The position numbers and the translations under genes are program-made. From positions 744,001 to 808,000 of the forward strand of contig NZ_CP102287.1 of assembly GCF_025151385.1 (NCBI RefSeq): a stretch of 64,000 bases of DNA, given 5' to 3'. Source of the stretch: Hoylesella buccalis ATCC 35310 (GTDB lineage: Bacteria; Bacteroidota; Bacteroidia; Bacteroidales; Bacteroidaceae). Positions 7,310 to 52,591 of the stretch are shown one piece after another (within the stretch, counting starts at the first letter, position 1; each line of letters begins with the position of its first letter). The notes under the pieces are model-generated. The model saw only the letters and a list, made by a program, of their open reading frames with translations. It made no database searches and was not told where the DNA came from.

Positions 7310-8104
7310 TTATTTGTTCACAACCTCGTCAAATTGTTTGTTCACTTCAAGCATCCATTCGGGAAGTTTCGCGATTGCGTTATCAATCAATTCTTTTGGC
7401 ATGGTCTTGTAAAAAGCGTATGCCATGGGGCCAGAAATGGCAGCCAAAGTGTCTGCATCACCGCCTAAGGCAATTGCCAACTTCAAACAGTCCGCATAAT
7501 CTGTGCTTTCTAAGAAGCAGATAAGGGCAGTTGGGACTGTCTGTTGGCAGCTCTCATCAAAATCATAGTTGGGTTTTATACCTTGATAAGTCAAGTCCGA
7601 CCAATTTGGGTAGTATTTTTCAAGCACATGTTCTCGAATAAAATCTTTGTTTTTCCCGTGCATACCATAGAATATAGCCAAAGCAGTTGCTACTGCTCCT
7701 TTAATTCCCTCGGGATGATTATGGGTAGGCATCGCTGTCTGTGTAGCCAGTTCTATACATTCTTTGACATCCTTAGCCATAAATCCAGCCGATGAAACCC
7801 TCATGGCACTACCATTACCACAAGAGTAATAAGATGGCTGAATATCTTTTGCAATCAGCCATCTTGCAAACCGTCCGCCAAATCCACGATAAAAGTCTGC
7901 ACGGCATCTCTTCCATAGGTTTTCAGCCATATTCAAATTCTTAATAAGTGCTTCCGCGCATGCAAACGTGCAAACGGTATCATCAGTATAAGTATTCGAT
8001 GAAAGTAGTAAATCGACCGCATTATAATTTTTTGTTCGATTTTCAAATTCGTACGGCATTCCTGCGATGTCGCCAATTGCTGCGCTTAATAGTAGATTCT
8101 TCAT
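7310..8104 (-). CDS. ADP-ribosylglycohydrolase family protein
   Basis: 264-residue member of the DraG/ARH family, which removes ADP-ribose from proteins or related adducts using two Mg ions. The metal-binding motifs are present: N-terminal AAIGDIAGMPYEF, TYTDDT (residues 38-43), MPTHNHPEGIKGA near residue 128, and the C-terminal ALGGDADTLAAI with its conserved Asp pair near 215-220. The length is normal for the family. It stands alone, convergent with the FHA gene (50 nt between stop codons), with no toxin or ADP-ribosyltransferase beside it. The physiological target is unknown. Confidence 0.9.
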   Translation of the reverse strand: MKNLLLSAAIGDIAGMPYEFENRTKNYNAVDLLLSSNTYTDDTVCTFACAEALIKNLNMAENLWKRCRADFYRGFGGRFARWLIAKDIQPSYYSCGNGSAMRVSSAGFMAKDVKECIELATQTAMPTHNHPEGIKGAVATALAIFYGMHGKNKDFIREHVLEKYYPNWSDLTYQGIKPNYDFDESCQQTVPTALICFLESTDYADCLKLAIALGGDADTLAAISGPMAYAFYKTMPKELIDNAIAKLPEWMLEVNKQFDEVVNK

Positions 8105-8215
8105 AGTTAATATTTTTTTTGTATAGCATTCAAAACCCTTGCCATCAATGGCTGAATTTCTCTTCAGAATCGAGAAATAATAATACTCTCTTTTGCAACA
8201 CTTGTCATGTAAGGC

Positions 8216-10792
8216 TCACATGGTTAATTTCACGGAACAAACACATTCTCTTCCTCTCAATTGATAGTTATAGGTAAATGTATTGACAGAGTTGTAAATG
8301 GTATATCCATATTGTTGTTGGTTCAGAATGTTTCTGATGTCAAGAGAAACCTTGAGTGCTTTCTTTCGATAAGATAATCCCATATCCAATAGACTCATGG
8401 TCTTCGTCAAATCTTTCGTCAATTCATTCTTCACAATATCAGCAGAAGTGTCGAATGTGAAGCCATCGAATGGCATGATTTTCAAGGAAATCTTGTGCTG
8501 CTGACTTAGATAGCTGTTGCTCTGATACTCGGTAGAAAGATAAGTCTTAGCAAACATTCCATGATAATCTAACTCCACATACTTAAAAGGTTGTGAAGTA
8601 AGTTTTGGAGAGAGAATCCAACTTTTCCAGGTGTACTTCTGCTGAACATCATTCTGCAAAGTCGTTTGTCGCTTCCATTGATAAACAGCATTTAATGAAA
8701 TTTTGGTCTTGATAGGCTCTATAAATTTTGTGATACCTACTTGCTCCATCAAACTTCTTCCTGTATTTGGGGCGTATATTTTCGACATGGTGACGAGCTT
8801 CGAGCTTGCGTTTTGGCTCAAAAGCAAGTTGTTCTTTTCCTGATTATAAAGAAAATCTACATTGAGAAACCACATTTTCAGTGGTATCTTATAGTCGTAA
8901 TGTAGCGAGGCATCCCAACTTTTGTTGTCTGCCAATACACCAGAGCCAATCTTCAATGAGGTGTCATTGACTCTGACAGGTGCTTTCAAGAAGTCCAATA
9001 TGTCGCCAAAGTTACGGGAATAGAACAGGTTGGTACGCAGCACAGAACGGGAGGTTACCTTATAGTTGCCATACACGCTTGGGCAAATGGAATAATACCA
9101 AGATCCAGACGATGATGCTGACATGTGGTCTCTATGAGCTATATAGTCTATGCGCATCGGTATTCCCAATCGAAAGACGTATTTGTACTGAGGATGCGAA
9201 TACTCATATTGTGGTGCCAACGCCATTCTGAGGTTCTGCATACTCACATCGTTGCCTTCATCTGTGGGCTGCAAGTTCGTTTTCACCTTATCTATATAGT
9301 AGTTCAACAACAATGGCAAATAGATGCGAGAGTTGAGATGCTTCTTTGATACAGAGATGGTGTTCTCTGTTCTGAACGTTTGTCCATTGGCATTTTGCAC
9401 TACACCACCAGCAGTTTCCTTGTCAAGCATTATCTTTCCCATAGGCGAACCTTGATATGACAATACAGATGTAACCGACCAACGCAAGTCCTTGTGATTC
9501 CACAAGGTAGAGAACTTGTTGTTCAAATCAAACGCTCGCATCTTCTGTTTCTGGTTAAAGAAAGATTCATTTTCTTTAGTTGGCAACTCAGATGTTAGAA
9601 AAGAACCAGTGCCAGACAACGTGTTGCTGAGATAAGTCTTATCCGAATTGTCCTTATATTCCAACAGAATGCTTGGGCGATGTACGGTTAATAGAGGTGA
9701 ATACGCTTGAGCGATGATGATATGATGGTCTGCATCCGCATAACTTCTCGTCAAACTATAATCGTACTTACTTTTGACATAACTATACCCAATATTCCCT
9801 TTTAAGGTAACATCCTTTTGAATCTTTTTCAATAGGTTGAAAGATACCAACCTGTCTGTTGGTGAAGCATATCTGTCAACATCAATAGGAGGTTTGGAAG
9901 CAGAGAGATTCTCCAACAAATTAGATACGGTAGATGATTTCTCTCTCTTGGCAAAGTGATTGGTTCCGTCTGTCAATGCAAACTGATTGATGTTGCCAGC
10001 CTTTAGTGAAGCCAACATTTGGAAGTTTGACATGAAGAGCATTCCTGCACCATTCACTTCATACAAAGTATGCTTGCCTGCACCAAGTGACACACCATAA
10101 GAACCAATTGGTTTGAACTTTGCCTTGTTGCTCATTTTTACATTAATCGCCACGTTGTCGGAAAAGACATCCTTTTTGGCTTTCACAGCTTGATGGTTGC
10201 TCAACACTTGCACGGTGCTTACTAACGAAGCAGGAATGTTTGTGGTTGCTATGTTATAGCGTCCACCCAATAAATCCATGTTATCAATGTAAAAGTTAGA
10301 AATCTCTTTGCCCAGATATTTGATGGAACCTTTGTCCTCAACTTCAATGCCTGGGAGCTTCTTCATGGCATCTTTCAAAGTGTAGTCATTCTTTCCTATA
10401 TACGAGGCTAAGTTGTAAGTCAGGGTATCACCTCGTTGGTAGATGGCGGGCGCTTTTACCACGACTTCTTTCAATGCAGTTGTTTTCTCTTTCAGGATGA
10501 AGTCGCACTTCTGTGAGATATTCTTGATTTCTCTCTTAGCTTTCTCATATCCAATGGTTTCGGCTGTGATGATGATCTGTTTGGCATCTGTCTTCAGCGT
10601 TAACTGATAAGCTCCCTTCTCGGTTGTTCGTGCAAAGGCTAAAGTTGCTTTGTCAACAGTTGCCTTTACGATGACTCCTTCCAAAGCCAAACCAGTGGTA
10701 TCACGCACTATTCCTGTAACTACACTTTGGGAAAAAGAGGAGTTACAGAGGCATGTCAACAGCATGAAAATCAAGAATATTCGCCTATTCAT
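8216..10792 (-). CDS. TonB-dependent receptor-like outer-membrane beta-barrel protein
   Basis: 858 residues with a signal peptide (MNRRIFLIFMLLTCLCNSSF, cleaved near SQS). A carboxypeptidase-regulatory-like beta-sandwich covers about residues 22-100 (VVTGIVRDTTGLALEGVIVK). A plug-like domain covers about 110-215 (LKDAMKKLPGIEVEDKGSIK, then ISNFYIDNMDLLGGRY). The remainder is beta-barrel strands rich in aromatic and polar alternation, ending with a C-terminal strand (CVCSVKLTM). It differs from SusC proteins in lacking a SusD partner. It follows a GLPGLI-family gene by 14 nt; that pairing recurs in Bacteroidetes. The ligand is unknown. Confidence 0.87.
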   Translation of the reverse strand: MNRRIFLIFMLLTCLCNSSFSQSVVTGIVRDTTGLALEGVIVKATVDKATLAFARTTEKGAYQLTLKTDAKQIIITAETIGYEKAKREIKNISQKCDFILKEKTTALKEVVVKAPAIYQRGDTLTYNLASYIGKNDYTLKDAMKKLPGIEVEDKGSIKYLGKEISNFYIDNMDLLGGRYNIATTNIPASLVSTVQVLSNHQAVKAKKDVFSDNVAINVKMSNKAKFKPIGSYGVSLGAGKHTLYEVNGAGMLFMSNFQMLASLKAGNINQFALTDGTNHFAKREKSSTVSNLLENLSASKPPIDVDRYASPTDRLVSFNLLKKIQKDVTLKGNIGYSYVKSKYDYSLTRSYADADHHIIIAQAYSPLLTVHRPSILLEYKDNSDKTYLSNTLSGTGSFLTSELPTKENESFFNQKQKMRAFDLNNKFSTLWNHKDLRWSVTSVLSYQGSPMGKIMLDKETAGGVVQNANGQTFRTENTISVSKKHLNSRIYLPLLLNYYIDKVKTNLQPTDEGNDVSMQNLRMALAPQYEYSHPQYKYVFRLGIPMRIDYIAHRDHMSASSSGSWYYSICPSVYGNYKVTSRSVLRTNLFYSRNFGDILDFLKAPVRVNDTSLKIGSGVLADNKSWDASLHYDYKIPLKMWFLNVDFLYNQEKNNLLLSQNASSKLVTMSKIYAPNTGRSLMEQVGITKFIEPIKTKISLNAVYQWKRQTTLQNDVQQKYTWKSWILSPKLTSQPFKYVELDYHGMFAKTYLSTEYQSNSYLSQQHKISLKIMPFDGFTFDTSADIVKNELTKDLTKTMSLLDMGLSYRKKALKVSLDIRNILNQQQYGYTIYNSVNTFTYNYQLRGRECVCSVKLTM

Positions 10793-11786: not shown

Positions 11787-12179
11787 CATCATTGCTGCTA
11801 AATTACAATAAATCTCGGAAAATCAGTAATACTCTACAGATTGTTTTATGAAATATCCAACACCTTAACAAGTTTTAAACTCCGCAAGATGATACGTCAA
11901 CCCAAGGCTCTTTCATTGAAACAAGGTTGTTCGGTGTAAAAAAAACACCATGTTCTTTTGTATGAATACGAATGGAACTACCATTTTCGACGCGATGTGA
12001 AAATAATGCTGGAGGACAATCAACGACACCCGCCTTTTTTGTTAACAAACCTTTCGTTTGTTAAACCGATTCGTTTTCTTTGACAAAATAAAATTGAAAA
12101 ATAGACAAAATTGGGAGTTATTTTAGGTATTCAAACCCTTAAACGCATCATGTTGTACTCAATTCACATGGAATTAATC

Positions 12180-12450
12180 AGCAATTAGCATGCTTTTACC
12201 GCCCAATTTGCATGCTTTAGCCGCCCAATCTCAATCCTATAAAAGGTCTTTTTTACACAAAATAGAGGGTTTTATGCGCCAAACACATTGCTTTTGGATT
12301 TCTCTTTCGGACTAAAAATCACATAAGATACTAACAATCAAACAGATAACAAAACTCTACCATAATGCGCTTATTTACAACACACGAACAAGTTGTTTGA
12401 AAAACGTCCAGCATTTGTGTTAAAAAGACGTTGCGACAGAAGACATTTCA
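12180..12450 (+). repeat. Diverged copy A of the 22-bp-period intergenic element
   Basis: Units beginning GCATGCTTT at 12188 and 12210 are 22 bp apart and share CCGCCCAAT; CAATCC follows at 12232 and CATTGCTTTT at 12286. A degenerate hairpin (12367-12381 with 12392-12406, core TTTACAAC/GTTGTTTGA) and a right-end motif GACGTTGCGACAGAA (from 12427) match the order and spacing of the clear copies. The left end is not recognisable. Confidence 0.55.
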
Positions 12451-12572
12451 CAGGTGAACCACCCGTTCGATTAAATAACAAAAAACGGAAAGCAACATGG
12501 CTAAATAATAGAGCCATGTACGCCAACCAACTCTTTTCCACCCCGAGAGGCTTATAATTCGGAAAAATTGCC

Positions 12573-27002: not shown

Positions 27003-27360
27003 GATTTCCCCACAAGCTGTTCATCTTATTCTTGACTGGTAGGGTGAAAATGATGAAAAATATTTACTACCCTCTCAAATACTCGCGTATTTGCAACCAG
27101 ACGCATGATAGCACGCAAATACGCGAATTTTGCAGTATACTATGTGTCAGTAACTTAGGTATTCCTATGCCTGATGCGGGTTGTGAACATCAATGCTTTT
27201 ACACCCGAAAAGCAATGACTTTCAATAGAAAACCAATTGCTTTAACATGCCAAACTGTACCTTCTAGAAGACCAAAAGCAATGCTTTTAGGCGGACAGAC
27301 GCGAAATATGACCCAAAAACAGCTGCGTGATGGCGATTTTTTTTCTAGAATGAGAATTTA
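27003..27360 (-). repeat. Copy B of the ~350-bp intergenic element (inverted orientation)
   Basis: On the minus strand it begins with CATTCTAGAAAAAAAATCG (ending near 27359). Units follow at exactly 22-bp steps (minus-strand CATTG or CAATTG beginning at 27283, 27239, 27217 and 27195, with one degenerate unit at 27261). Then comes a perfect 11-bp hairpin (CGCGTATTTGC 27084-27094 with 27115-27125) and a right end CAAGAATAAGATG (about 27020-27035). A 109-codon open frame across it (27032-27361) has no coding character. It fills most of the 588-bp gap between ftcD and the helicase gene. Confidence 0.7.
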
Positions 27361-27413
27361 AAAAACTGAAATAATTCAACAAAATGCGCCTTGTATACGC
27401 TATCCTGCTCTTG

Positions 27414-34714: not shown

Positions 34715-34805
34715 AAATTAATTTAGCATATAAGTCAGTCTGCAAGATGTAAACTTCATCTTCAACAACTCTTACTGCAGAATGATTTATATGCTAAATT
34801 AATTT
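34715..34805. repeat. 91-bp element with perfect 19-bp inverted ends
   Basis: The left arm (34715-34733, AAATTAATTTAGCATATAA) and the right arm (34787-34805) are exact reverse complements. A 53-bp interior holds a further AAGATG/CATCTT hairpin. It begins 27 nt after the transporter stop codon. It may be a MITE-like insertion, since it has terminal inverted repeats, or an extended 3' stem. No clear target duplication flanks it. Confidence 0.65.
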
Positions 34806-35013
34806 CACTCGTTTAACTTAAGTACTTATGATATGATCTATCAACCTACCTTATAGATGGAACGTATCAACCAAGAATAACTGAACCAACAAGTACTTTA
34901 TATTTCTATTCAAATTTGTTTTTACTACATCACTGCCGAACATTATTAATAGAATACTGCACAAATCAATGTCCGCTTTTTTTATCAAAAAATAGCTCAA
35001 AAACGGCACTTAA

Positions 35014-35363
35014 AAACTTTCAATCTAGAAAAAATCAATAGGCTTGCAGGAAGCACATCATTCATTATTTTTCCTAAAAATCGATTTCATTGCACAAAAG
35101 CAATGAGCTTATTCGATAAAAGGCAACACTTAATCAGTCATGTAACATGCTTTTGGATGGCAAATGCTTGTTAATTGCGCGCTAAAAACAATGTTTTTAA
35201 GCTTAAACAGTTTGAAAAACAGATCAGAAAATCTTTGTTTTAGCAACAACTCGTTGATTAACAGATACATAAACAAATCGCTCATATTTGCCGTATTTGC
35301 AATCGTAAGTTTGTTTGTTTGCAAATACGCCAAAGAATAAGATGTTCGTTGTCAAGAAAATTC
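35014..35363 (+). repeat. Copy C of the ~350-bp intergenic element
   Basis: The left end is AAACTTTCAATCTAGAAA (from 35014). Five units begin at 35101, 35124, 35146, 35167 and 35189 (CAATGAGCTT, CAACACTTAA, CATGCTTTTG, CTTGTTAATT, CAATGTTTTT). A 15-bp hairpin with one mismatch has arms 35288-35302 and 35319-35333 (CGTATTTGCAA). The right end AAGAATAAGATG...GTTGTCAAGAAAATTC stops at 35363. It aligns along its whole length with copy E. Confidence 0.75.
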
Positions 35364-35542
35364 ATCATAACTACTAATTGCTTTTTCATTCAGCCCACGA
35401 ATGAAAAGCGTTCGCATGAAATCTTCGACAACATGTCTATCGCTTACTGGCTATGAATGCCTGTCTGCGCTTTGTTTGAGAAAAGTCGCTGGAATTTGAG
35501 CTTAAAGTCAGCTATTTATTTCTGTTTACCAACTTTTTATCT

Positions 35543-43098: not shown

Positions 43099-44456
43099 CA
43101 CTACTGTCCACGAAAATCTTTTAATAATCTCTTGAAACGCCTATAAATACAAGCTTGTAGGAGATAAAATAGACTCCCTACTTTTGAAAAGAGTATCTTT
43201 GCCACAAATTACAATTTGAAAGCAGATACTTATGAACAAAGGTCGATACGTATTTTCACAGCTGTGCGACTTTCTGCCGACAGACCATTTCAAATGGTTG
43301 ATAAAAAAGTATGAAGGTAATAAATATGTGAAGAGTTTCACTTGTTGGAATCATCTGATGGTTCTTCTATTTGGTCAGTTGTCTAATCGTGAGGGATTAC
43401 GAGACCTTATTGTAACCATCACTCCGTTCAAGTCAGCGTTCCACCATCTTGGTTTTGGAAAGAATGTCAGTAGAAGCAATTTGAGCAAGGCCAATGAAAT
43501 ACGCGAAGTCAAGATATTCCAAGAGTTTGCAGACAAGATGGTTTCCATAGCAAGAGAGAAACGAGGAGTCGTCAAGGACTTCTTCATATCGAACAATGTC
43601 TATGCGTTTGACTCCTCAACAATATCATTGTGCCTTTCTGTATACTGGTGGACTAAACTGCATCATGGGAAAGGAGGAGTGAAATTGCATGAACTGTATG
43701 ACGTGAAGACAGACATTCCGACATTTTCTGTCATTACAGACGCTTCAGTTCACGATTCTCAAGTGATGGAGCTAATTCCCTATGAGAAAGAGAGTTTCTA
43801 TATATTTGACAGAGCGTATATGGCAACTAGGAAACTTTATATAATAGAAGGAGCAGAAGCTTACTTTGTCGTGAGAGAGAAGCATAAAATGCCGTTTGAG
43901 GTCATAGAGGATAAAGAATACAACAACCCTTCATCTGGAATTATGGCTGACCAAATTATACGTTTCAAGGGATACAAGACTAAGAAGCAATATCCAAATA
44001 AACTTCGACGAGTGGTATTCTATGACTATGATGGTAATAGGACATTTGTATTTTACACGAACAATTTTGAAATTACAGCGGAACAGGTTGCTATGCTTTA
44101 CAAATACAGATGGAGAGTAGAACTGTTCTTCAAATGGCTGAAGCAACATCTGCGCATCAAAGAGTTTTATGGAACCTCGGAGAATGCTGTAAAAATACAA
44201 ATCTATGCAGCTATCATTGCATATTGTCTTGTCGTTATCGTACAAGAATGTATGGGGCTAAAGCTTCAAACCTATGATGTTCTAAGAATTTTAAGCACGG
44301 CATTGTTGACAAAAATGCCATTGTGTGACTTGCTCATTGAACAGAAAGAGGAAGAATTTACTGAAGGAAAAAACCTGCAGCTCTGCCTCAATTTTGATGG
44401 GTAACTATCAATTTGTTACTTTTTGAAATGTTAAAGGGTTTTCGTGGACAGTAGTG
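43099..44456 (+). mobile_element. Complete IS4-family insertion sequence, 1358 bp
   Basis: The ends are inverted: the outer 18 bp are identical (43099-43116 and 44439-44456, CACTACTGTCCACGAAAA), with weaker pairing continuing inward (TTTAA). It is flanked by a 9-bp duplication and contains one intact transposase gene. Intact ends, an open frame and perfect duplications suggest recent movement. It is the only copy in the window. Confidence 0.92.
43232..44404 (+). CDS. IS4-family transposase
   Basis: DDE transposase of 390 residues. The N-terminal region (about 1-75, FSQLCDFLPTDHFKWLIKKY) matches the DUF4372-type domain of this IS4 subgroup. The catalytic core follows: first Asp in VYAFDSSTISLCL (about 128), second Asp in FYIFDRAYMATRKL (about 192), and the Glu inside the IS4 signature Y-2-R-3-E-6-K (YKYRWRVELFFKWLK, near residue 290). 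No frameshift or stop is seen. TAnnTTTG boxes at 43179-43186 and 43194-43201 could drive it. Confidence 0.95.
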   Translation: MNKGRYVFSQLCDFLPTDHFKWLIKKYEGNKYVKSFTCWNHLMVLLFGQLSNREGLRDLIVTITPFKSAFHHLGFGKNVSRSNLSKANEIREVKIFQEFADKMVSIAREKRGVVKDFFISNNVYAFDSSTISLCLSVYWWTKLHHGKGGVKLHELYDVKTDIPTFSVITDASVHDSQVMELIPYEKESFYIFDRAYMATRKLYIIEGAEAYFVVREKHKMPFEVIEDKEYNNPSSGIMADQIIRFKGYKTKKQYPNKLRRVVFYDYDGNRTFVFYTNNFEITAEQVAMLYKYRWRVELFFKWLKQHLRIKEFYGTSENAVKIQIYAAIIAYCLVVIVQECMGLKLQTYDVLRILSTALLTKMPLCDLLIEQKEEEFTEGKNLQLCLNFDG

Positions 44457-44465
44457 CTTGCCGTT
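44457..44465. repeat. Right target-site duplication of the IS (CTTGCCGTT)
   Basis: Exact copy of 43090-43098. It is followed by TTTATATTTC, the T tract of the interrupted terminator. Confidence 0.85.
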
Positions 44466-44491
44466 TTTATATTTCTTATGACTGCCAATAG

Positions 44492-44581
44492 CATTGAGTT
44501 TGGCCTCCAAAGTCAATGCTTTTCAAGGTCAAACTCATTGACTTTACACGCCAATCTACATGCTATTGAAAAGATGTGGAT
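44492..44581 (+). repeat. Fragment D: four units of the 22-bp-period repeat
   Basis: CATTGAGTTT at 44492, CAATGCTTTT at 44514, CATTGACTTT at 44536 and CATGCTATTG at 44559 are spaced 22, 22 and 23 bp. The third unit (CATTGACTTTACACGCCAAT) resembles the CATGCTTTTACCGCCCAAT units of copy A. The left and right ends and the hairpin of the full element are missing. Confidence 0.6.
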
Positions 44582-44657
44582 GACAGGCTTGATACGAACA
44601 TGAAATTTGAGATGATTAGCCGGTTCAATTGTTCTTCAAGAAAATATTGTCAAATTG

Positions 44658-44689
44658 TTTGGACAATTACAGATTTTAGCTTAATTTTA
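44658..44689 (+). promoter_or_regulatory. Promoter of rlmD-ansA
   Basis: TTTG at 44658-44661, a 20-bp spacer and TAATTTTA at 44682-44689, one base off the -7 consensus. The leader is about 15 nt to ATG 44708. Confidence 0.55.
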
Positions 44690-44707
44690 CCAACCAAAAC
44701 AAGCAAG

Positions 44708-46126
44708 ATGTCAAGAAAAAAGAAGCCCTTACCCCTTTTAGAAAATATCCTGATAACCGACGTTGCCGCCGAAGGAAAATCTTTGGCACGCATAGACGAC
44801 ATGGTTGTATTTGTGCCATTTGCAGTTCCTGGAGATGTGGTAGATTTGCAGGTGCGCAAAAAGAAGCACCACTATTGTGAAGCAGAGGTGGTACGTTTCA
44901 TCAAATACAGTGATGTGCGACAAACACCAAAGTGCCAACATTTTGGCATTTGTGGTGGATGTAAGTGGCAAATGTTGCCCTACGAAGAACAACTTAAGGC
45001 TAAACAAAAGCAAGTACACGACCAACTGGAGCGAATCGGTAAGATAGAATTGCCCGAATTCAGACCTATCATGGGGTCGGAAAAGACGTATGAATACCGC
45101 AACAAACTGGAGTTTGGTTGCTCCAACAAACGATGGTTAACCTGGGAAGAGGTGACAAGCGGTGTGAAATACGAGCACATGAATGCCATTGGTTTTCACA
45201 TCACAGGAGCCTTTGATAAAATCTATCCCATTGAGAAATGCTGGCTCATGGATGACCTCTGCAATCAAATCAGAAACTGCATTCGCGACTATGCCATCGA
45301 CCACAACATCAGCTTCTTTGACTTGAGAGCACAAACGGGACTGCTGCGCGACATCATGATACGCAGTGCGAACACAGGTGAGTGGATGGTGCTGATTCAG
45401 TTTAAGTTCCAAGAAGAGGGTGACGAGCAACGCGCACATGGACTTTTGCAGCATGTGGCTGACTCGTTTCCACAGATAACTTCCCTACTTTATGTGGACA
45501 ACCAAAAGTGTAACGATACCTTTGGCGACCAAACAGTAGTGGTGTTCAAAGGAAAAGATCATATCACGGAAACCATGGGCGACCTAAAGTTCAAAGTGGC
45601 AGTCAAGAGTTTCTACCAAACTAATACCAATCAGGCTTACCATCTTTATAGCGTGGCGCGCGAATTTGCCCAACTTACCGGTAAAGAGTTGGTTTACGAC
45701 CTATACACGGGAACGGGCACTATTGCCAACTTCGTAGCCAGAGAAGCCCGGGAAGTCATCGGCATTGAATATGTAGAAGATGCCATCAAGGATGCGAAAG
45801 TCAATTCGGCAGCCAACGACATACACAACACCCTGTTCTACGCAGGCGATATGAAGGACATTCTTACCGAGGAATTCATTACCGAACATGGACGTCCTGA
45901 TGTCATTATCACCGACCCTCCACGCGCCGGCATGCACCCAGATGTGGTTCGTACCATTCTCGGAGCAGCTCCCCAACGTATTGTATACGTTAGTTGTAAT
46001 CCTGCAACACAGGCGCGCGACCTGCAAATGTTGGATGAACAGTACAAGGTCATGGCCGTTCAGCCAGTCGATATGTTCCCTCACACGCCGCATGTTGAGA
46101 ACGTGGTACTGCTTGAGCAACGCTAA
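44708..46126 (+). CDS. rlmD: 23S rRNA (uracil-5-)-methyltransferase, RlmD type
   Basis: SAM-dependent m5U methyltransferase of 472 residues from ATG 44708; an upstream in-frame ATG lies before the promoter. A TRAM-like N-terminal domain covers about 8-65. The iron-sulfur cluster ligands are Cys76, Cys82 and Cys85 (KCQHFGICGGCKWQ), with a fourth Cys in IEKCWL. SAM motifs include YDLYTGTGTIANFVA, and the nucleophile Cys is in YVSCNPATQARDL. Phylum members are called RlmD, but without biochemistry TrmA-like specificity cannot be excluded. ansA follows after 24 nt. Confidence 0.92.
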   Translation: MSRKKKPLPLLENILITDVAAEGKSLARIDDMVVFVPFAVPGDVVDLQVRKKKHHYCEAEVVRFIKYSDVRQTPKCQHFGICGGCKWQMLPYEEQLKAKQKQVHDQLERIGKIELPEFRPIMGSEKTYEYRNKLEFGCSNKRWLTWEEVTSGVKYEHMNAIGFHITGAFDKIYPIEKCWLMDDLCNQIRNCIRDYAIDHNISFFDLRAQTGLLRDIMIRSANTGEWMVLIQFKFQEEGDEQRAHGLLQHVADSFPQITSLLYVDNQKCNDTFGDQTVVVFKGKDHITETMGDLKFKVAVKSFYQTNTNQAYHLYSVAREFAQLTGKELVYDLYTGTGTIANFVAREAREVIGIEYVEDAIKDAKVNSAANDIHNTLFYAGDMKDILTEEFITEHGRPDVIITDPPRAGMHPDVVRTILGAAPQRIVYVSCNPATQARDLQMLDEQYKVMAVQPVDMFPHTPHVENVVLLEQR

Positions 46127-51906: not shown

Positions 51907-52120
51907 TCATAATTTATTGAAATGACTGCCATCGTTTCTTAAAAAAAAGGTTTTCAATCCATTTTTATAGTTTTGTTAACATATGGCCTGCTATTTGAAA
52001 CGCAAAATCCGCACTATTTTGAGTTTTCATATTTTTGTTCAAATAAAAAAAAGAGCATCTCGCATTTCGTCAAATTTGTAAGATAATTTATCAAAGAAGT
52101 GGGCAAAAAACGACCCTTGT

Positions 52121-52473
52121 AAACTTTCATTCTAGAAAAAATCGATAGGCACAGAGGATGCCAAACAAGCGATTTCGGTACCCTGTCAATCGACTTGATG
52201 ACGTTAGAGCATTGAGTTTACTCGACAAAAAGCATCACTTGATGGAGCAATATGCATGTTGTTGAACAACAAAAGCATACATATAATGGTCTAAAAGCAA
52301 TGCTTTTGATCAAAAATAGCATGAAAAATATTCGCATCACGCAACGAAATATAACTAACACATTGTACTATTGGCACTTGCAGACATTGCAAATTCCTTG
52401 GCGTATTTACAAACTTCAGGGAAAGAGTTTGTAAATATGCCAAGGATAAGAGAGGACGTTGTCAAGAAAATTC
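52121..52473 (+). repeat. Copy E of the ~350-bp intergenic element
   Basis: The left end is AAACTTTCATTCTAGAAA (from 52121). Six units begin at 52210, 52233, 52255, 52276, 52298 and 52320 (CATTGAGTTT, CATCACTTGA, CATGTTGTTG, CATACATATA, CAATGCTTTT, CATGAAAAAT). A 20-bp hairpin with a single G-U pair has arms 52396-52415 and 52426-52445 (CGTATTTACAAAC). The right end has GACGTTGTCAAGAAAATTC, ending at 52473. It is the best-preserved copy and fills half of the 770-bp gap between the GH20 gene and hflX; the rest of the gap holds promoters only. Confidence 0.78.
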
Positions 52474-52591
52474 TTAATCAATCAGCCTCTTGTTTTTACG
52501 CCCTGTCCATCAAACATCAAAGAAATCCTGACATTGCAGATTAGCTGGCATTGTGTTGCATTAGCCACCGTAACAAAAAAGATGTTTTTAT

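Follow-up and report, generated by a model that had tools for sequence, protein, structure and literature searches.

A genus-wide intergenic DNA element of about 380 bp with locked length and helical rhythm in Prevotella-type bacteria

The stretch of DNA analysed here (64,000 nucleotides, referred to as the window) carries five copies of a non-coding, intergenic element of approximately 380 bp. They are labelled A to E, and their successive starts lie about 15, 8, 9 and 8 kb apart. For their placement we used a profile of 383 positions, R1, built without structure from an alignment (A2) of 27 of the first 30 loci of the window's genome (G000, 3.31 Mb); L012, L019 and L020 were dropped. Copies C and E were part of this alignment and copy B was not. 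The length-locked core of copy E (model positions 1-383) occupies positions 52089-52474 on the plus strand, with an R1 match from 52092 to 52473 (model 4-382, 216.9 bits, E = 1.1e-65) and ends extrapolated by 1-3 bases. It is followed on the same strand by a tail at 52475-52511 (model positions 383-420 in strain pairs), which has few indels and the sequence of which is not conserved.

Copy C (34983-35364, plus strand; 228.9 bits, E = 2.4e-69) has both ends in common with copy E, with 80% identity over 56 nt and 75% identity over 52 nt. Just upstream of it, a separate inverted repeat with 30-nt arms (93% complementary) spans positions 34715-34805. Copy B is a genuine member of the family (61.2 bits, E = 3.7e-18). 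It is eroded, however, and extends over 27059-27363 of the minus strand, not over 27003-27360 as given in the preliminary description. Copy A (12048-12471) is degraded and was matched on both strands because the core is rich in dyads: at 12145-12415 on the plus strand (45.9 bits, E = 1.7e-13) and at 12048-12299 (36.3 bits) and 12352-12471 (17.5 bits) on the minus strand. The weakest of the five is the strongly degraded copy D (44410-44719), with R1 matches at 44410-44563 on the minus strand (27.2 bits, E = 8.9e-08) and at 44481-44719 on the plus strand (19.7 bits). Its low-coordinate part overlaps the right end (arm 44431-44456) of an insertion sequence at 43099-44456. This insertion sequence has 26-nt inverted ends (92% complementary) and encloses an ORF of 390 amino acids with DDE_Tnp_1 (PF01609) and DUF4372 domains.

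The element can be subdivided into a left end, a row of boxes, a spacer and a right domain. The left end consists of a weak TTGT-type start, AAAAACGGC and the strongly conserved TTTCAATCTAGAAAAAATCAATAGGC; in copy E we read its motif as TTTCAWTCTAGAAAAAATCRATAGGC (52125-52150, plus strand), and many of the corresponding columns of A2 are near-invariant. The centre is built up from about five dyad boxes with the consensus CAAAAGCATGCTTTTG, 22 bp or two helical turns apart. In copy E they extend over 52204-52308 of the plus strand, as read from the sequence and the alignment consensus, with centres at approximately 52212, 52234, 52256, 52278 and 52300. These boxes are what had been described as short periodic units. 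The subsequent spacer (approximately 52310-52390, plus strand; model 221-300) evolves fast and keeps its length. The right domain, common across the genus, comprises GTAAC, an inverted repeat GGCGTATTTGC/GCAAATACGCC and TTGTCAAGAAAATTC. In copy E it was matched at 52358-52474 (plus strand) by R2, a model of the right domain, and ends with GTTGTCAAGAAAATTC. The inverted repeat of copy E (arms 52395-52415 and 52426-52446, 95% complementary) is the previously noted hairpin with CGTATTT arms. By eye, copy E looks mosaic among three strains: the left part of the window's version is nearest to L099 (H. buccalis) and its middle to L094 (BV3P1).

The span between left motif and right end is 346 to 350 bp in 28 of 30 loci; no right end was found in the other two, L012 and L020. 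The end motifs are TTGTCAA-like, in direct orientation and weak on the left in G000, and inspection of A2 by eye revealed no matching inverted ends. AATAAGA, formerly taken for one form of the right end, is not an end; the right end is GTTGTCAAG, which is missing in copy B. The length of 350 bp given before also had to be revised, to a modelled core of ~383 bp within a nearly indel-free zone reaching to ~420 bp. The observations of the preliminary description thus hold for copies C and E, whereas the limits of copy B, the AATAAGA end and the length do not. One copy of G000 is seemingly split by ~13.6 kb: L163 and L012 (~1169620-1183560) cover model positions 147-383 and 4-162 on the same strand, and the H. 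buccalis counterpart of L163/L012 (L118) is of full length.

The preliminary description knew three copies and suggested a search for more. The element is real, far beyond this scale and beyond chance, and the suggested check came out in its favour. Copy E as a query yielded 74 matching pieces in G000, and R1 gave 183 matches, antisense matches to the same copies included. Among the matches listed, at least 76 loci cover at least 340 of the 383 R1 positions. We count ~76 near-full and ~20 degraded copies in this genome, including the five of the window. The mean pairwise identity of the full copies is only 57%. The set of full-length copies analysed below has 62 rows, 61 of them distinct (L018 duplicates L055).

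AA/TT dinucleotides recur along the element with a helical rhythm. Their autocorrelation peaks near lags of 11, 22, 33 and 43, and the spectral peak lies at 10.9 bp. At this period the signal of every one of the 62 rows lies above the 95th percentile obtained from 400 random segments of the window, and the copies have one common phase (R = 0.96). When the best period was left free within 10-12 bp, the elements averaged 16.2, compared with a null 95th percentile of 7.3 and a null maximum of 12.8, which 49 of the 62 rows surpassed. Since the copies are homologous, the 62 rows are not independent witnesses; phasing in other species provides more independent support. In G016 and G012, which carry different boxes (TGCGTCA-type; AAAGCNNTGCTTTT), the phase is still present in all copies (11 and 4, respectively), and it was found in 39 of 40 further copies of G016. 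Against the same null, 4 of 5 copies of G014 and 20 of 20 of G029 are phased. G126 is the exception: a long palindrome takes up the middle of its element, and phasing is weak (6.1-11.4), with 12 of 20 copies above the null 95th percentile of 7.3. In two G126 copies, L287 and L290, the central loop between GGTCGAAA and TTTCGACC appears by eye inverted relative to most of the 18 others. Between strains, substitutions at positions 75-300 are rarer in the A-tract phase than out of it (0.105 versus 0.142, p = 2.4e-8; the phase bins were chosen after seeing the indel and substitution data of the 47 pairs described below).

A wedge model of the first 300 bp, with assumed wedge angles and untwisting taken as uniform, predicted a bend of 241 degrees, versus 73 degrees for random DNA, if the element is underwound to ~10.9 bp per turn. 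For relaxed DNA the predicted bend of 76 versus 58 degrees is little above random. PMC7537859 argues that such periodicity need not reflect bending.

Apart from G126 with its weak phasing, species differ in the sequences of their boxes and retain the geometry. In G016 the lengths of the element, measured between the left motif and the CGCGTATTT in the right domain, fall into classes of 237, 259, 281 and 303 bp, that is, into steps of 22 bp. The length was measurable in 32 of the 40 further copies, and in 30 of these it lies within 2 bp of one of the four classes (the other two measure 213 and 233 bp). Restricted to the 26 copies whose left motif is good, the lengths concentrate at 22 bp with R = 0.994. 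A change of length in G016 thus corresponds to one whole box, or two helical turns. Because 24 of the 26 lengths belong to two classes, 259 and 281 bp, the steps may stem from few independent events.

The length is also kept during evolution in place. All 50 copies fetched from G060 (H. buccalis ATCC 35310) sit where G000 has a copy, and the loci of all 30 copies fetched from two further genomes (G061 and G062) are likewise occupied in the buccalis group; in both cases the copies are mostly the best-scoring ones. None of the copies seen has therefore moved recently, and the length is nevertheless constrained in place. We compared 47 of the 50 G000/G060 pairs; the partners of L163, L020 and L142 were broken and these pairs were dropped. 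The element shows 15 indel events (18 bases) per 1771 substitutions and the non-coding flanks 57 (666 bases) per 1423 (Fisher p = 4.8e-9). Over the strain comparisons, indels relative to substitutions are 3 to 5 times less frequent in the element than in the adjacent non-coding DNA. Misaligned flanks are not the cause, as the contrast persists after removal of 11 of 77 flank stretches with more than 25% divergence (15/1647 versus 34/689, p = 1.4e-8). Substitutions are tolerated, at 10% in the element compared with 5.8% in well-aligned flanks. The spacer is the fastest part, with 17.6% substitutions and 2 indel events per 652 substitutions in the 47 pairs. The tail (positions 383-420) has no indel per 197 substitutions in these pairs and 2 indel events (31 gap bases) per 186 substitutions in 30 further pairs. 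These 30 pairs, a repeat with Prevotella sp. BV3P1 and MAG SUG2085 (L224, L230 and L238 were dropped from the 30 G061/G062 loci and L089, L090 and L094 added), gave 18/1219 versus 68/1468 (p = 4e-6), with unfiltered flanks that diverge by 16 and 23% compared with 11% for the element.

Slippage does not explain the low number of indels, since homopolymer runs of at least 5 are commoner inside the element than outside (13.7 versus 8.9 per kb). Ectopic copying does occur: the spacer of L111 is 52% identical to its ortholog and 92% to copy L045. Among the sampled copies, however, the pairs in which a different copy is closer than the ortholog number only 2 to 6 out of 47 for each segment, in some cases through loss of register. 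Gene conversion is therefore rejected as the whole cause; as far as the sampled copies go, ectopic copying contributes to the pattern and does not explain it. Faster substitution and ectopic copying could both add to the appearance of many substitutions and few indels.

The listed copies of three genomes avoid each other over several kilobases, far from a random arrangement. We analysed the matches listed for each genome (125 of 137 for G016, 102 of 129 for G147, 47 of 67 for G080 and 25 of 31 for G126), so that weaker copies may lie closer. In G016 the minimum gap is 4.74 kb, with no gap below 4.5 kb compared with 20.2 expected. For the 95 copies of G000 these values are 6.15 kb and none below 6 kb versus 14.9 expected, and for the 97 gaps of G147 they are 7.56 kb and none below 5 kb versus 15.6 expected. 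The situation is less clear in the remaining two genomes. G080 has one gap of 3.3 kb, the only one below 5 kb compared with 3.7 expected, which is only suggestive (p = 0.10). The 23 gaps of G126 are more even than random (CV = 0.57, p = 0.005), with a minimum of 60 kb and, among the matches listed, one gap below 60 kb versus 7.2 expected; as one weak match (L310, E = 1.6e-06) in the ten wide G126 loci lies 3.5 kb from a copy, the figure of 60 kb holds for strong copies only. A second R1 match in the fetched flanks was found at 1 of 77 G000 loci, a left-end fragment at L150, 1.1 kb from the copy and outside the set of 95; L160 is a single copy with an insert. No second match was found in the fetched flanks of 50 G060 loci and 30 G061/G062 loci, or within up to 3 kb on each side of 20 G029 loci.

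Many Prevotella-type bacteria carry the element, with more than 100 copies per genome at most. In a survey with R2, matches at E = 1e-3 were obtained in 92 of the 149 genomes sampled from the genus (the window's own included; up to 22 candidates scored per genome), and none in the other 57. A family-wide sample gave matches in 22 of 199 genomes at 1e-4, ten of them in other genera, mostly with one weak match (best 7e-12). Of 197 other genomes sampled across the order, 4 had one marginal match each. At the respective cut-offs the number of matches is 137 in G016, 129 in G147, 67 in G080, 31 in G126 and 2 in G066. Different subfamilies dominate different species. The 20 fetched G029 copies have a mean identity of 79% among themselves, and their closest counterparts in G000 are 7 of the 59 copies compared (a type II burst). 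By reading, 9 of these 20 loci have flanking genes in common with a G000 element locus, and in 7 of 8 compared pairs with common flanks the elements are only 50-56% identical; the eighth pair, L195/L151, is a true common copy with 91% identity. In G126, ten wide loci are 79-95% identical over the element, with sharp borders enclosing 375 to 387 bp. Recent amplification at new places, as in MITEs, thus applies to G126 and G029, whereas no sign of it was seen in the buccalis group. Overall, the family appears to go through bursts of multiplication and to remain in place afterwards.

Six of the ten wide G126 loci (L302-L306 and L308) have a stretch of 1.8 to 2.8 kb beside the element in common. 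At L302 the element lies upstream of a 16S rRNA gene (7499-9028) accompanied by two tRNAs. Part of the similarity may therefore reflect duplication of an rRNA operon, and we discarded a larger parent element as an explanation of the common flanks.

These bursts raise the alternative of a non-autonomous mobile element, in which the boxes would be binding sites of a transposase or integrase, the spacing would reflect target immunity, and the geometry would be kept because only well-built copies are mobilised. Mu and Tn7 show target immunity, and their end sites are also about 22 bp long. The species-specific subfamilies, the divergence of G029 and G000 elements at common flanks, the similar (79-95%), sharply bordered G126 copies and the mutual exclusion all fit this alternative. 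Arguing in the other direction, the terminal motifs are direct and not inverted, and all 50 copies fetched from H. buccalis and all 30 from two further genomes, mostly the best-scoring ones, sit at already occupied loci. A single probe among G126 relatives gave neither a TSD nor a usable empty site. PF01797 (Y1) has no match in G000 and G126 (three in G016), which disposes of a RAYT mobiliser in these two genomes. A phage or plasmid origin was rejected as well: there was no phage match, one plasmid match of 38 bp, and no viral contig matching two end patterns. On balance we consider mobility unlikely to be the main explanation, though it is the strongest of the rivals.

A second alternative is an array of sites of the centromere, origin or gyrase type, with boxes nucleating a segregation, replication or topoisomerase complex, for which parC iterons of plasmids or strong gyrase sites are models. 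The dyad boxes in their 22-bp register, the phased geometry and the minimum spacing would suit such an array. We find it improbable given copy numbers that range from none detected to 137 per genome and given that no strand or position bias was seen (GC skew from fetched loci only).

That the element acts as a transcribed small RNA or a cis-regulatory leader is very improbable, despite its intergenic position and an inverted repeat with some covariation, because RNAalifold predicted no pairs either for A2 (27 G000 copies) or for A3 (26 right domains across species), no Rfam family matches it, it follows no orientation rule relative to genes, and length steps of 22 bp are unexpected of RNA loops. 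For A3, 26 of 33 rows were used (L036, L037, L049, L248, L251, L252 and L254 were dropped). In the window no Rfam family reached its gathering score, in line with the earlier claim that no known RNA family fits, and a search of five loci matched only FopS and two related families beside L031. The FopS-family sRNA (RF04319, 71.7 bits, above gathering score; L031:2059-2125, minus strand) is a separate gene ~180 bp beside the element copy. In G000 the arms of the inverted repeat pair at 80.7% versus 78.2% when shuffled, with a covariation of 0.184 versus 0.135 and 14 double-change cells versus 6.2 shuffled. The right arm decays in other species. The hairpin emphasised in the preliminary description is thus only modestly coupled and was dropped as a selected feature. 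A promoter or gene-orientation role was discarded too: among 78 rows, the left side faces 42 five-prime and 36 three-prime gene ends and the right side 44 and 34 (by a simple ORF rule, with one copy counted twice and one split copy as two).

A protein-coding function can be dismissed, as none of the 62 rows is open in any of the six frames. This supports the original idea of selection on structure rather than on protein; the small-RNA option and the hairpin as key feature were not supported. Helical phasing, locked length and mutual exclusion had not been recognised before. What evolution seems to preserve is the length and the helical rhythm of the element rather than its letters, any RNA fold or any protein, so that the element probably shapes the chromosome itself.

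Based on these results we propose that the copies form a genus-wide family of DNA-architecture elements, protein-wrapped or curved, which organise supercoiled loops and spread slowly with mutual exclusion. We regard this reading as evenly balanced between right and wrong. The dyad boxes every two turns, the A-tracts at 10.9 bp and the scarcity of indels suit the needs of a segment that is curved or wrapped around a protein. From the observed geometry and spacing we infer a binding protein, a role in supercoiling and a mechanism of spreading as follows. A host protein, or a nucleoid protein together with a species-specific reader of the boxes, would bind the boxes, which lie on one side of the helix, and wrap or bend the DNA of the element. 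As the period is 10.9 and not 10.5 bp, the DNA would become curved chiefly in the underwound state, under negative supercoiling, so that the element would act as a pin of a supercoil apex or of a loop. Bound copies could thus hold an apex in place or anchor a loop, and the minimum spacing would arise because one pin serves several kilobases: either two apices cannot sit too close to each other, or a bound copy blocks new insertion nearby. The family would spread slowly, with subfamily bursts as in G029 and G126, and then remain static under selection. In a more specific version, which we hold only tentatively and lean against, the element would be a shape-encoded organiser comparable to a positioned-nucleosome or loop-anchor sequence, with inherited register and spacing, letters and a protein-read box that turn over between species, and a built-in exclusion distance.

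It is an open question how the loops and the supercoil architecture of bacterial chromosomes are determined by sequence. The dozens to more than 100 natural copies per genome, with their variants, stepped lengths and measurable exclusion distance, make it directly testable. If the spacing reflects target immunity instead, it points to an unknown mobile system. In either case the family constitutes a large, so far unnamed part of the intergenic DNA in a genus of bacteria common in the human gut and mouth.

Among the tested features that define known systems, the element lacks the inverted ends of MITEs, the enzyme of REP/RAYT systems, which was not found, and the fold of structured RNAs. Like REP units and BIMEs it is a dispersed, intergenic, palindromic repeat of many copies; REP units are ~30-40 nt long and depend on a Y1 (RAYT) transposase. 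With the end arrays of Mu and Tn7 it has in common 22-bp protein sites (putative here) and an exclusion between copies on the kilobase scale, with no close second copy among those listed for G000, G016 and G147. In contrast to them it has neither a transposase gene nor inverted ends, its boxes are central, and its copies are static across strains.

The element also matches none of the known repeat families tested. In accordance with the earlier claim of an undescribed element, a search of literature available outside subscription journals gave no paper describing it, as far as the entries and abstracts listed show, and we have seen no published element in which a locked length and two-turn modules occur together with species-specific boxes and exclusion. 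The closest published work found deals with A-tract periodicity, treated as a statistical property, and with BrickBuilt, a MITE of Porphyromonas gingivalis. The latter (PMC4596501) has 19 copies in ATCC 33277, 23-nt tandem repeats without spacers, and small inverted-repeat ends, described as leader and tail. It resembles our element in occurring in Bacteroidota, only between genes, and with internal tandem units of similar length. The element differs in its direct end motifs, in its 22-bp boxes, which are diverged yet locked in register, and in its genus-wide family.

The nucleoid A-tract clusters with 10-11 bp periodicity, for which a role in packaging has been proposed (PMC3940949 and PMC4761138), are similar with regard to A-tracts phased near 11 bp and predicted curvature. 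In the element, too, phasing at the helical period exceeds the background, weakly so in G126, and the bend itself is predicted. As described there, however, the clusters are a statistical feature of unrelated sequences, whereas the element forms a family of discrete homologous copies that have fixed ends and a locked length, are built of 22-bp modules and exclude one another. Finally, intrinsic curvature pins plectonemes in vitro, in experiments with positively supercoiled DNA (PMC6301789), and the element resembles such DNA as a curved sequence predicted to localise supercoil tips. There, pinning is a property of promoters and of test sequences of ~75 bp, whereas the element is dedicated and dispersed.
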